Assembly: GCF_001488575.1 (NCBI RefSeq)
Contig: NZ_LN831304.1
Location: 1-52,625, forward strand
From: Halobacterium hubeiense
Lineage (GTDB): Archaea; Halobacteriota; Halobacteria; Halobacteriales; Halobacteriaceae
Direction of reading: 5' to 3'
DNA length: 52,625 bases
Numbering within the stretch: the first letter of the stretch is position 1; the number at the start of each line of letters is the position of its first letter. The translations under genes were made by a program, and so were the position numbers. Positions 39,805-43,330 of this stretch are shown here, one piece after another. Under the pieces are notes generated by a model. The model worked only from the letters and a program-made list of their open reading frames with translations. It ran no database searches and had not been told where the DNA came from.

Positions 39805-39832
39805 CATCACGGCCCAAGAGAGGTGTTTTTGA

Positions 39833-39855
39833 GCGCCTGCAAAGGGTGCAGGCGC
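39833..39855. repeat. Left-end hairpin of TnpB element 2
   Basis: GCGCCTGCA and TGCAGGCGC form a 9-bp stem with a five-nt AAGGG loop. IS200/IS605 elements carry such subterminal hairpins, recognised as single strands by TnpA. The element would need TnpA supplied in trans. Confidence 0.5.
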
Positions 39856-39944: not shown

Positions 39945-40121
39945 ATGTCGGTTGAATTGGACGAGATCAAGCAGGCCGAAGCTGAACTGGAGGAGTGGCT
40001 AGTCGAACAGGCCGAGAACGGTGTTGCGGAAATCGTCCTGATCGGGCTTCTTCGGGACTACGCGGACGACATCGAACACCTCGGTTACGTGCCGCGAATG
40101 TGGGGCGAGTCAGAGCAATGA
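39945..40121 (+). CDS. 58-aa protein coupled to tnpB element 2
   Basis: A short [23 protein letters not shown], then [20 protein letters not shown], ending WGESEQ. It is acidic and helical. Its TGA overlaps the ATG of tnpB (ATGA), so translation is coupled. Unlike the divergent RHH-like protein of element 1, it is in the same strand and operon as tnpB. It may regulate TnpB or its RNA; not recognised. Confidence 0.65.
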
Positions 40122-41359
40122 GGCGAACCAACACCTTCGAGGTCGTCCCGCAATCGGAGCGGGCCGACACCGTCCTTCGACGCCTCCTCGATGCGTCAGC
40201 GAGCCTCTGGAACCAGTTGACGTATGCGCGCCGACAGCAGTTCTTCGCCGGCGAGAGCGTCTGGGATTGTGAGAACTACTACGACGAGTACGTCGACATC
40301 TTGGGGTCAGCAACGACACAGCAGATCACCCGCGTCAACGACGCCGCTTGGCGGTCGTTCTTCGAGACGGTCGAGGAGGCCGACCAGGAGGTCAGCCCGC
40401 CGGGCTACTGGGGAAACCGAGACGACGGGCGCGACCTGCGGACCTACATCCGCAACGACACCTACACGACCTCTTGGGGCGAGCGCTCCCGGCTCGAAGT
40501 TCCCATCGGCAGCCAGCTCAAAGACGAGTACGGCTTCGATCGGTTTGAACGGCTCCGGGTTGCTGTCCGGGGGGAGCCACACTGGCAGGGCGAGCAGGGC
40601 CGTCTCCACCTCACCTACGACGACGTCGACGAGACGTATCGGGCCCACCAACCGGTGACGGTGCCCGAGACTGAGCAGGCGACGCCGACGGGGACGGACG
40701 TCGCCGCGCTCGATATCGGCGCGAATGTCCTCGTGGCGTGTACGACGTCGGCAGGTAACCAGTACTGGTACAGCGGCCAGGAGCCGTTCCGGCAGTTCCG
40801 CGAAACCACCGAGCGCATCGCCGACGCTAAAGCGAAGCTGCCGGATGGACAGGAGACCAGCAATCGAATTCAGCGGCTCTATCGGAAGCGGTCCCGCCGG
40901 CGCGACCACGCCGTAAACGCGCTCCTTCGTGATCTGGTCGAGCGACTCCACGACGACGGCGTCGAAACCATCTACCACGGCGATCTCACCGGCGTTCTCG
41001 GCGAGTACTGGTCCGTCGAGGCGAACCTCAAAGCGCGTACCTTCTGGGCGCATCGACAGTGTCTCGACCAGCTCGCGAACGTCTGTGAGGAGTACGGCAT
41101 CGAGGTGGCTTCACTCTCCGAGGCGTGGACCTCCCAGACGTGTCCGGAGTGTGGCGAACGCGAGCGGACGCGCCGACATCGCGAGACGCTGCGGTGTCCG
41201 TGTGGCTTCGAGGGGCACGCCGACCTCGTCGCGTCGCGGACGCTGGTCGAACAGGCGACGAACACCGCGGTCAGGCCGACGGCACGGCCCGTGCGGTTCC
41301 AGTGGGACGACCACCAGTGGTACCCCGTTGAGGGGGACGCGGTGGAACCCAACGAATAG
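40118..41359 (+). CDS. tnpB: TnpB-like protein with altered RuvC-II residue
   Basis: A 413-aa TnpB. RuvC-I Asp is in [13 protein letters not shown] near 198, the zinc finger is CPEC ... CPCGF near 344-365, and RuvC-III Asp is in [11 protein letters not shown] near 370. At RuvC-II, where the catalytic Glu normally sits (EDL), the sequence is [11 protein letters not shown] near 288, with Gly in place of Glu. Some TnpB and Fanzor lineages have a relocated catalytic Glu; nearby VEANLKAR could supply it. Otherwise the protein would be nuclease-dead. ATG 40118 overlaps the small ORF. Confidence 0.88.
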
Positions 41360-41460
41360 CGCACAGACCCGCAAGGTTCCGCCGTGGTGTCGCCGGGACA
41401 CCAGCGAGCGGGCGCTCCGTGTACGCGGAGTGGATGTCGATCCGCTGGTCGCTCGCTTTT
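41340..41460 (+). ncRNA. Candidate omega/reRNA of TnpB element 2
   Basis: After the tnpB stop the sequence folds well: TGGTGTC/GACACCA (41385-41403), then CCAGCG (41401-41406) with CGCTGG (41443-41448) and AGCGAGCG with CGCTCGCT, enclosing a CTCCG/CGGAG hairpin (41415-41430), all followed by TTTT. A structured RNA at this place is expected for a TnpB guide RNA. The two first stems compete slightly, so the fold is provisional. Confidence 0.5.
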
Positions 41461-42123: not shown

Positions 42124-42191
42124 GACCATTCCGGGCGGTCTGCCTGCAGTAGCGGGCGGACTGCCGGGCTAAAATGAATGTGCCCTCGACG

Positions 42192-42437
42192 CCAGCGGGA
42201 AAGCGCGAGGGGTTGCGCGGCGTGGCTGCTCACCCCCCACGCTTTCTCCGCTGGTCGCTCGCTCCGGGCGGGTCGGCGCGCGGTGCTGGTTGGGGCCACC
42301 TCATGCAGGCGCGCTCTCGCTCGCGCCCCGGTAGGGCGCTCGCGAAGGCGCGAGCGAGAGCGCGCAGATGGTTCTGTCGGTCGTTGTCGTCGGAAAACCG
42401 CGATGTGGTAGCATCGCGGTGTCGGCGCGTGAGCGCC
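42192..42437 (+). promoter_or_regulatory. Row of four hairpins upstream of the OB-fold gene
   Basis: (a) CCAGCGGGAAAGCG at 42192-42205 with CGCTTTCTCCGCTGG at 42240-42254, one bulge. (b) GCGCGCTCTCGCTCGCGCC at 42309-42327 with its perfect 19-bp inverse at 42347-42365. (c) ACCGCGATG/CATCGCGGT at 42397-42420. (d) GGCGC-GTGA-GCGCC at 42424-42437, a GNRA-type tetraloop. The last hairpin ends 26 nt before ATG 42464. This could be a structured leader RNA that autoregulates the ssDNA-binding protein, or a single-strand origin. Confidence 0.6.
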
Positions 42438-42463: not shown

Positions 42464-43330
42464 ATGTCCAGTAACAACGCTAGCGGAAAGGTCGTTTCGG
42501 TCGATGAACAGGCATTCGAGAAAGCGGGCGGTCAGGCGGTCGATGAAGACGGCTTCCCAGTCGTCGACGAGACGCCGGAGTTCGAGGCGGCGGTCGAGCA
42601 GGAGACGCAGGCGAAGGTGGATGCAAACCACCCGGACGGGATCGCGGACACGAGCAACGAGCGGATTCACGGTGTCACCCTCGAACAGGAAGAGCGCATT
42701 CGGGCGCGGGAAGCCGAACTGGAGCGCATCAGTGCCCAGGCCGAGCTGGGAACGCAGGACGGTCGCGAGCAGCGCACGCGTGAGGTCGTCAGCGAGCAGT
42801 GTGGTCGTGACGAGCCGGCGCCGGCGGAGCGTACGGATCCCCGAGAGAAGCTGACGCAAGAGGAACTCGCGGAGGTCAATGAGCAGGCGATGCGGATCAG
42901 CGACGAAGTGCAGGGCGGCTGGTCGAGAGCGGTCGTCGCGAAGCAGCTGGCTGAGAAGGTGCAGCGCGGGCGGGACGTCACGAAGGCGGTGCTGGAGACC
43001 CTCGAGGAGTTGAAGGCGGCGCCGGGGGCGATCGTGCCCATCGCGGACGTGCCGGACGTCCCGGTCGGTGAGGTGACAGTTCAAGGAACTGTGCAGACCC
43101 TTTGGGAACCGAGCAGTAGCGCGATTCAGCAAGTCGGGCTAATAGCGGATGACAGCGGGAAAATCAAGTTCACCTGCTGGGAGAAATCCGGGCAGACGGT
43201 TGTCCGCGAAGGGCAGACAGTCAGGTTCAGAGCGGCGGCCAAGAACTGGTACGAAGGTCGGTGCTCAATCGCGCTGACTGGGTGGTCGGATATCCATTTC
43301 CCAGAGCGTGGCCGCTGGTGGGAAGCATAG
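42464..43330 (+). CDS. OB-fold ssDNA-binding protein (RPA-like)
   Basis: A 288-aa protein. The first 190 residues are acidic and largely helical/disordered (VDEQAFEKAGGQAVDEDGFP); the last 90 are an OB fold (VGEVTVQGTVQTLWEPSSSA, IKFTCWEKSG, VRFRAAAKNWYEGRCSIALT), like RPA/SSB-type domains of haloarchaea. It would bind single-stranded DNA during replication, repair or transfer. ATG 42464 follows the hairpin array; an ORF start at 42368 would run through the hairpins and is rejected. A T-rich tract at 43345-43357 follows the stop. Confidence 0.75.
   Translation: MSSNNASGKVVSVDEQAFEKAGGQAVDEDGFPVVDETPEFEAAVEQETQAKVDANHPDGIADTSNERIHGVTLEQEERIRAREAELERISAQAELGTQDGREQRTREVVSEQCGRDEPAPAERTDPREKLTQEELAEVNEQAMRISDEVQGGWSRAVVAKQLAEKVQRGRDVTKAVLETLEELKAAPGAIVPIADVPDVPVGEVTVQGTVQTLWEPSSSAIQQVGLIADDSGKIKFTCWEKSGQTVVREGQTVRFRAAAKNWYEGRCSIALTGWSDIHFPERGRWWEA

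Follow-up and report, generated by a model that had tools for sequence, protein, structure and literature searches.

In the literature surveyed here, domesticated TnpB proteins are either nuclease-dead repressors (TldR) or CRISPR effectors. We describe a tnpB cassette on a 52,625-nucleotide (nt) stretch of plasmid DNA from Halobacterium hubeiense (RefSeq assembly GCF_001488575.1, contig NZ_LN831304.1, positions 1 to 52,625; hereafter the window), in which a gene for a 58-residue protein is followed by tnpB, a predicted omega-RNA scaffold and a putative guide; all coordinates below refer to its forward (+) strand. We put at roughly one half the probability that the cassette is an immobilised nuclease with a fixed guide that would act against sibling plasmids, its carriers being protected by a changed transposon-adjacent motif (TAM). 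L and G numbers are our handles for loci and genomes; G000 is the genome of the window.

Relation to known systems

Haloarchaeal IS200/IS605 (IS1341-type) elements with a sotRNA or omega-RNA (PMC12558985) resemble the window cassette in having a 3′ RNA that overlaps the end of the open reading frame (ORF) and a homologous scaffold end, and their tnpA-bearing representatives occur as relatives within the same genome. The cassette, in contrast, is without tnpA, has no recognisable left end, carries a guide that is not determined by an insertion site, and has no Rfam match. TldRs (PMC13418256) are also transposon-free TnpBs with a fixed guide, a partner gene and a guide match upstream of a gene, but their RuvC domain is inactivated, whereas the window triad is complete by way of an alternative glutamate and the self-targets vary. 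With the TnpB gene drive of plasmid insertion sequences (PMC11870625) the cassette shares an expected action against sibling plasmids that lack the element. The guide of a gene-drive TnpB records the current insertion site, however, whereas that of the window is constant and the cassette lies outside its target, so that a carrier could be spared only if its target or TAM had changed. Plasmid-borne type IV and V-M CRISPR systems (PMC11656645) share the proposed RNA-guided action on conserved regions of other plasmids, although they use an array with many spacers where the window has one protein and one unchanging guide.

A fixed-guide, tnpA-less, catalytically complete cassette with TAM-altered carriers has no precedent in the literature searched, although the core works on TnpB classification and on TldRs lie outside it and an earlier description is possible. 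If the proposal is true, the cassette would be a minimal exclusion system of one protein and one guide, a step between transposon drive and CRISPR. For an alternative-glutamate TnpB, the locus provides a naturally occurring guide and target together with a predicted TAM, and it allows a direct test of whether archaea use fixed-guide TnpBs.

TnpB and its relocated glutamate

The TnpB of the window (413 residues, 40118–41359) is identified by profile matches (Pfam OrfB_IS605, 1.6e-24, and Cas12f1-like_TNB, 2.5e-15; NCBIfam guided_TnpB, 1.7e-36) and by an AlphaFold2 model (mean pLDDT 82.6), the best structural matches of which are Cas12f and TnpB. It thus has the OrfB_IS605 and zinc-ribbon (TNB) domains and the fold of the TnpB/Cas12f family. 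A reading of the DNA made beforehand from the letters alone (the sequence-only reading) had found the RuvC-I and RuvC-III aspartates in place and the EDL motif changed to GDL, which alignment bears out: they are D199 (40712–40714) and D369 (41222–41224), and G288 (40979–40981) occupies the canonical RuvC-II glutamate position. That reading had left a choice between a relocated glutamate and a nuclease-dead, guide-RNA-binding regulator. The alignment favours the former, E335 (41120–41122), which stands six residues ahead of the first zinc cysteine pair (E335-x6-C342; E-x6-CxxC). This is the position of the alternative glutamate, E_alt, in Fanzors and their prokaryotic relatives (PMC10711439).

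The exchange between positions 288 and 335 is strict among the relatives and the TnpBs of the same genome: Gly288 goes with Glu335, and Glu288 with Pro, Ala or Ser335. After the addition of 29 further haloarchaeal proteins, 74 aligned TnpBs comprise 40 of the Gly/Glu kind, 33 with Glu and one of Pro, Ala or Ser, none with glutamate at both positions, and one with glycine at both. The last is L033, a frameshifted gene, and the exchange therefore holds in all 73 intact sequences. E335 is invariant across all intact relatives, as are D199 and D369. In the model, D199 lies at the end of strand 194–199, E335 follows strand 329–334 and D369 begins helix 368–381, a placement consistent with a single active site.

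On this alignment E335 restores the triad, and the catalytic arrangement is of an already known kind. The sequence-only reading had itself allowed that a catalytic glutamate located elsewhere in all close relatives would leave nothing new in the active site; this is what is found, and the suggestion of catalytic novelty lapses. With the triad completed by E335 where the literature places the alternative glutamate, the enzyme is probably active. A nuclease-dead TnpB, the other branch of that reading, was set aside as unlikely, E335 substituting for the lost glutamate and all three residues being invariant; the inactivated triad of TldRs is accordingly not seen here. Clades with a rearranged RuvC-II have been described, one RII-r5 member being active in a TAM screen (PMC10278001). 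With such RII-r or E_alt TnpBs (PMC10278001, PMC10711439) the window protein shares the RuvC-I and RuvC-III aspartates, the absence of the canonical glutamate and the glutamate six residues before the first zinc cysteine pair, and by alignment it is a new member of this group. It differs from them in its CxC second zinc knuckle, in the lack of tnpA and in the fixed guide, and from Fanzors and pro-Fanzors in that its RuvC-I motif is DIG instead of DPG. The genome of the window has some 20 TnpB-like zinc-domain matches and four tnpA genes, and TnpBs with the alternative and with the canonical glutamate occur in it side by side.

Probable loss of mobility and a fixed guide

Relatives about 59% identical to the window TnpB are paired with tnpA. 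Five such tnpA-bearing insertions (L002, L003, L054, L270 and L271) begin after TTAC and end at GATGTCAA, beyond which stand five different guides; as the flank is the guide, it differs at each insertion. The window clade has no adjoining tnpA; nothing in it significantly matches the left end found in the mobile relatives, no left end adjoins TTAC, and the 16 nt that follow its scaffold are the same across 11 right-flank clusters. The cassette is therefore not an intact transposon, and we read it as an immobilised TnpB of IS200/IS605 type; the earlier hint at a role outside transposition was thus a useful one. The left edge of the cassette was considered as an insertion-sequence left end and rejected, there being no significant left-end match and the hairpin found there preceding other plasmid genes too. 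At L016–L033 the left and right flanks of the cassette are freely combined between plasmids (the same left with different right flanks, and the reverse), which suggests recombination at the cassette.

The predicted omega-RNA scaffold (41285–41440, the 5′ limit being approximate) overlaps the 3′ end of tnpB and terminates in GATGTCGA, its end being placed by homology to the five mobile relatives. The sequence-only reading had described a well-folded RNA beyond the stop codon; the branched structure is indeed present, but the folding energy is unexceptional (z = −1.44, with 13 of 200 shuffled sequences folding equally well). Comparison between loci carries more weight: six base pairs in the 3′ region show changes on both sides, and synonymous change falls to 0.12–0.15 over the last 38 tnpB codons, against about 0.33 elsewhere. 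Conservation, covariation and the suppression of synonymous change support an RNA that overlaps the 3′ end of the ORF. Covariance models of Rfam families, the haloarchaeal sotRNA included, gave no match to this RNA, and a search of phages as carriers of the RNA or of the leader discussed below found none.

The 16 nt past the scaffold, TCCGCTGGTCGCTCGC (41441–41456), are the putative guide, recognised by their conservation between contexts and by a match in a plasmid leader. Between 11 unrelated right-flank clusters (29 distinct loci) their identity is 92%, as against 47% for the next 16 nt, which are mostly a T-run at the start, and 27% for the 16 nt after that. Only positions 1 (T or C), 9 (any base) and 14 (C or T) vary appreciably; the loci were gathered with a pattern tolerating changes at these three positions, and every locus of this lineage that was examined fitted it. 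Only comparison with relatives could show that these 16 nt, which close the conserved 3′ region, behave as a fixed guide, and likewise that E335 restores the triad. The T-run directly after it (41457–41460), conserved in most contexts, may serve as a transcription terminator. Sequence beyond 41456 was rejected as a guide: allowing up to three mismatches, the genome holds no further match to it, and it lies 16 nt past the scaffold end of the relatives.

A target-like site in a conserved plasmid leader

The guide and one further base recur exactly, over 17 nt, at 42247–42263, within a conserved noncoding plasmid leader with a covarying stem (42190–42300). About 0.5 matches of this guide, at up to three mismatches, would be expected in the window by chance. 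The guide is also found, with 0–2 differences over the 15-nt core, in the leader linked to the cassette in 10 of 17 close relatives. The leader is present in 121 haloarchaeal plasmid records. In the annotated examples examined, the matching site stands some 150–270 bp ahead of an OB-fold, DNA-binding or replication-factor-A gene, and twice ahead of a TFIIB-family gene. The gene downstream of the leader in the window (42464–43330) would encode an OB-fold or single-strand-binding-like protein, judging from annotated relatives and from a match to PF21473 (0.0046) that is below the cut-off. A guide match upstream of a gene that might be regulated, as TldRs have, is thus seen in sequence.

Arms of the leader stem covary, GGGTAAGCG with CGCTTACT and GGGAAAGCG with CGCTTTCT. 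The leader (in the window and at L195–L236) is unannotated, highly conserved and structured, and its inner hairpins are interchangeable. A second copy of the leader, with an exact guide match and TTTC, is found on the largest contig of the genome of the window (G000:C1:195456).

Across 292 genomes, only TTAC or TTTC directly precedes the target in the leader. TTAC, the sequence that flanks the left end of the mobile relatives, stands in the leader in exactly the required register; beside the self target of the window there is TTTC (42243–42246), where many plasmids without this TnpB have TTAC. Genomes carrying this TnpB have TTTC in 11 cases and TTAC in one, whereas among non-carriers 12 have TTTC, 20 have TTAC and one has both. 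The contrast gives p = 0.0018 by Fisher's test (the genome with both omitted) and p = 0.007 by family-stratified permutation (that genome counted as TTAC), values that are indicative only, as the hypothesis arose beforehand from one plasmid (L197) and the sampled genomes are related. Within 20 kb of intact carrier genes the leader is of the TTTC, GGGGAAT|G or ATAT|C type and in no case TTAC. TTTC also occurs in Halapricum desulfuricans and Halobaculum roseum, both carriers; in Natrinema pellirubrum, another carrier, the leader breaks off immediately ahead of the target. The only TTAC leader closely linked to the cassette is on the carrier plasmid of DL31, the tnpB of which is broken by an in-frame stop and a frameshift.

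Proposed mechanism and alternatives

The glutamate exchange, the loss of tnpA and of the left end, the fixed guide, the leader match and the allele pattern are read directly from the sequences, and the following scheme of transcription, cleavage, TAM recognition and plasmid competition is proposed to account for them. The tnpB transcript would be processed to an omega-RNA ending in TCCGCTGGTCGCTCGC. The TnpB–RNA complex would then recognise, in the conserved leader that related haloarchaeal plasmids carry, TTAC followed by the guide sequence, and would cut such plasmids, favouring the plasmid that carries the cassette. Carriers would escape through a leader of their own that has TTTC instead of TTAC, that is of another variant type, or that is truncated. 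A nuclease aimed at other plasmids is favoured because the targets of carriers vary, guide position 9 included, while the catalytic residues stay.

Several observations weigh against this scheme. TTTC is common in non-carriers as well, and the contrast is weak (8:1 versus 6:6) when the best-sampled family is taken by itself. One genome with a full-length carrier gene (G080) has TTAC 95 kb away, its guide differing at positions 1 and 14. The target in the window fits all 16 guide positions, the difference being confined to the TAM, and part of the guide is able to pair with tnpB codons in the predicted fold.

The alternative that survives best, although we regard it as unlikely, is a TldR-like use in which the TnpB, guided by the fixed RNA, occupies the TTTC leader of the plasmid that encodes it and, without cutting DNA, represses or tunes the OB-fold gene. 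The guide match stands on the same plasmid some 215 bp ahead of where the OB-fold gene starts and is exact in the window, L019, L023 and L025, and the association of carriers with TTTC could equally make TTTC the recognised motif. A repressor of its own OB-fold gene should, however, keep its own target, whereas many carrier leaders mismatch guide position 9, self-matching not being maintained, and nine linked carrier leaders of the GGGGAAT|G or ATAT|C types are without TTTC. Moreover, the catalytic triad is invariant, unlike that of TldRs, and the mobile relatives insert after TTAC and not TTTC.

Less probable still is a structural role for the conserved 16 nt: the scaffold or right end would have been lengthened by 16 nt that pair with tnpB codons, and the true guide would be the sequence that follows, beginning TTTTCCAGCTG. 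RNAalifold does pair the segment with the codons for FQWDDH, and the T-run past it is partly conserved too. The scaffold end is nevertheless fixed by homology to the five mobile relatives, the tnpB segment with which the 16 nt would pair is just as conserved where relatives have other guides, and the sequence after the 16 nt is without a match elsewhere in the genome. Nor does this explanation predict that a plasmid leader should hold 17 nt identical to this stretch, with TTAC or TTTC before them in register.

We likewise give little credence to a functionless relic, in which an ordinary TnpB element once sat in the leader after TTAC and its leftover guide was spread by plasmid recombination: the guide is the leader sequence directly after TTAC, as insertion there would leave, and TnpB is known to drive the spread of insertion sequences in plasmids (PMC11870625), but guide, triad and ORF are retained across many genera and 11 flank contexts, whereas unselected relics should decay, the tnpB-less L046 and L047 each already having a guide change.

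The 58-residue protein and its leader

The gene directly ahead of tnpB (39945–40121) encodes an acidic protein of 58 residues from a family of haloarchaeal plasmid small proteins, and it overlaps the tnpB start in ATGA, the coupling that the sequence-only reading had described. It evolves as a real gene, since differences at the three codon positions number 1034, 537 and 3019 over 18 loci. The family occurs in 38 of 292 haloarchaeal genomes. Close members precede the TnpB clade of the window and also an unrelated canonical-glutamate TnpB (Halobacterium salinarum, L048; L113), and more distant ones directly precede the approximately 59%-identical TnpBs that are without tnpA (L053/L114, L116 and L120). 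Other members have no TnpB and lie near DUF6735 and SWIM zinc-finger genes. The protein is a recurrent companion of tnpA-less TnpBs and possibly has an accessory role.

In the second TnpB group (L053/L114, L115, L116 and L120; with the 58-residue partner and no tnpA) a common sequence, TACGTTACGTTTGACGAGGA, follows the scaffold with mostly codon-like variation, and part of this sharing may reflect inheritance of one insertion site. The guide of this lineage has no second copy in its own genomes and only weak plasmid matches. The canonical-glutamate TnpB behind the 58-residue gene (L048, L113, L262 and L263) has CTCCGGGTGG[T/G]CTGCC after the scaffold in four genomes, and the sequences then diverge. 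Exact matches to this third guide among the 292 genomes number four, three in its own cassettes and the fourth, with unrelated flanks, chance-like; its similarity to a different part of the leader was too weak to be used. It is a tentative suggestion, to which we give somewhat less than an even chance, that several plasmid TnpB lineages of haloarchaea (the alternative-glutamate, the 59%-identical and the canonical-glutamate clades) have been domesticated as single-guide nucleases behind the 58-residue family, each with a frozen guide of its own, for plasmid exclusion with TAM-based self-immunity.

A T-run and a leader hairpin, GCGCCTGC-AAAGGGT-GCAGGCGC (39826–39855), stand ahead of the 58-residue gene, as they do ahead of other haloarchaeal plasmid genes. 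The general form, a T-run with GCGCCTGC-NNNN-GGTGCAGGCGC, occurs in 24 of the 292 genomes (the window, L052 and L065–L089) and precedes several unrelated plasmid genes; a scan of viral contigs for it gave only unrelated matches. At L027–L032 a second hairpin of the same design lies between the 58-residue gene and tnpB. Two distant family members (L128 and L130) adjoin a RAMP-superfamily (Cas7-like) gene, assigned by a weak Pfam match (0.0019).
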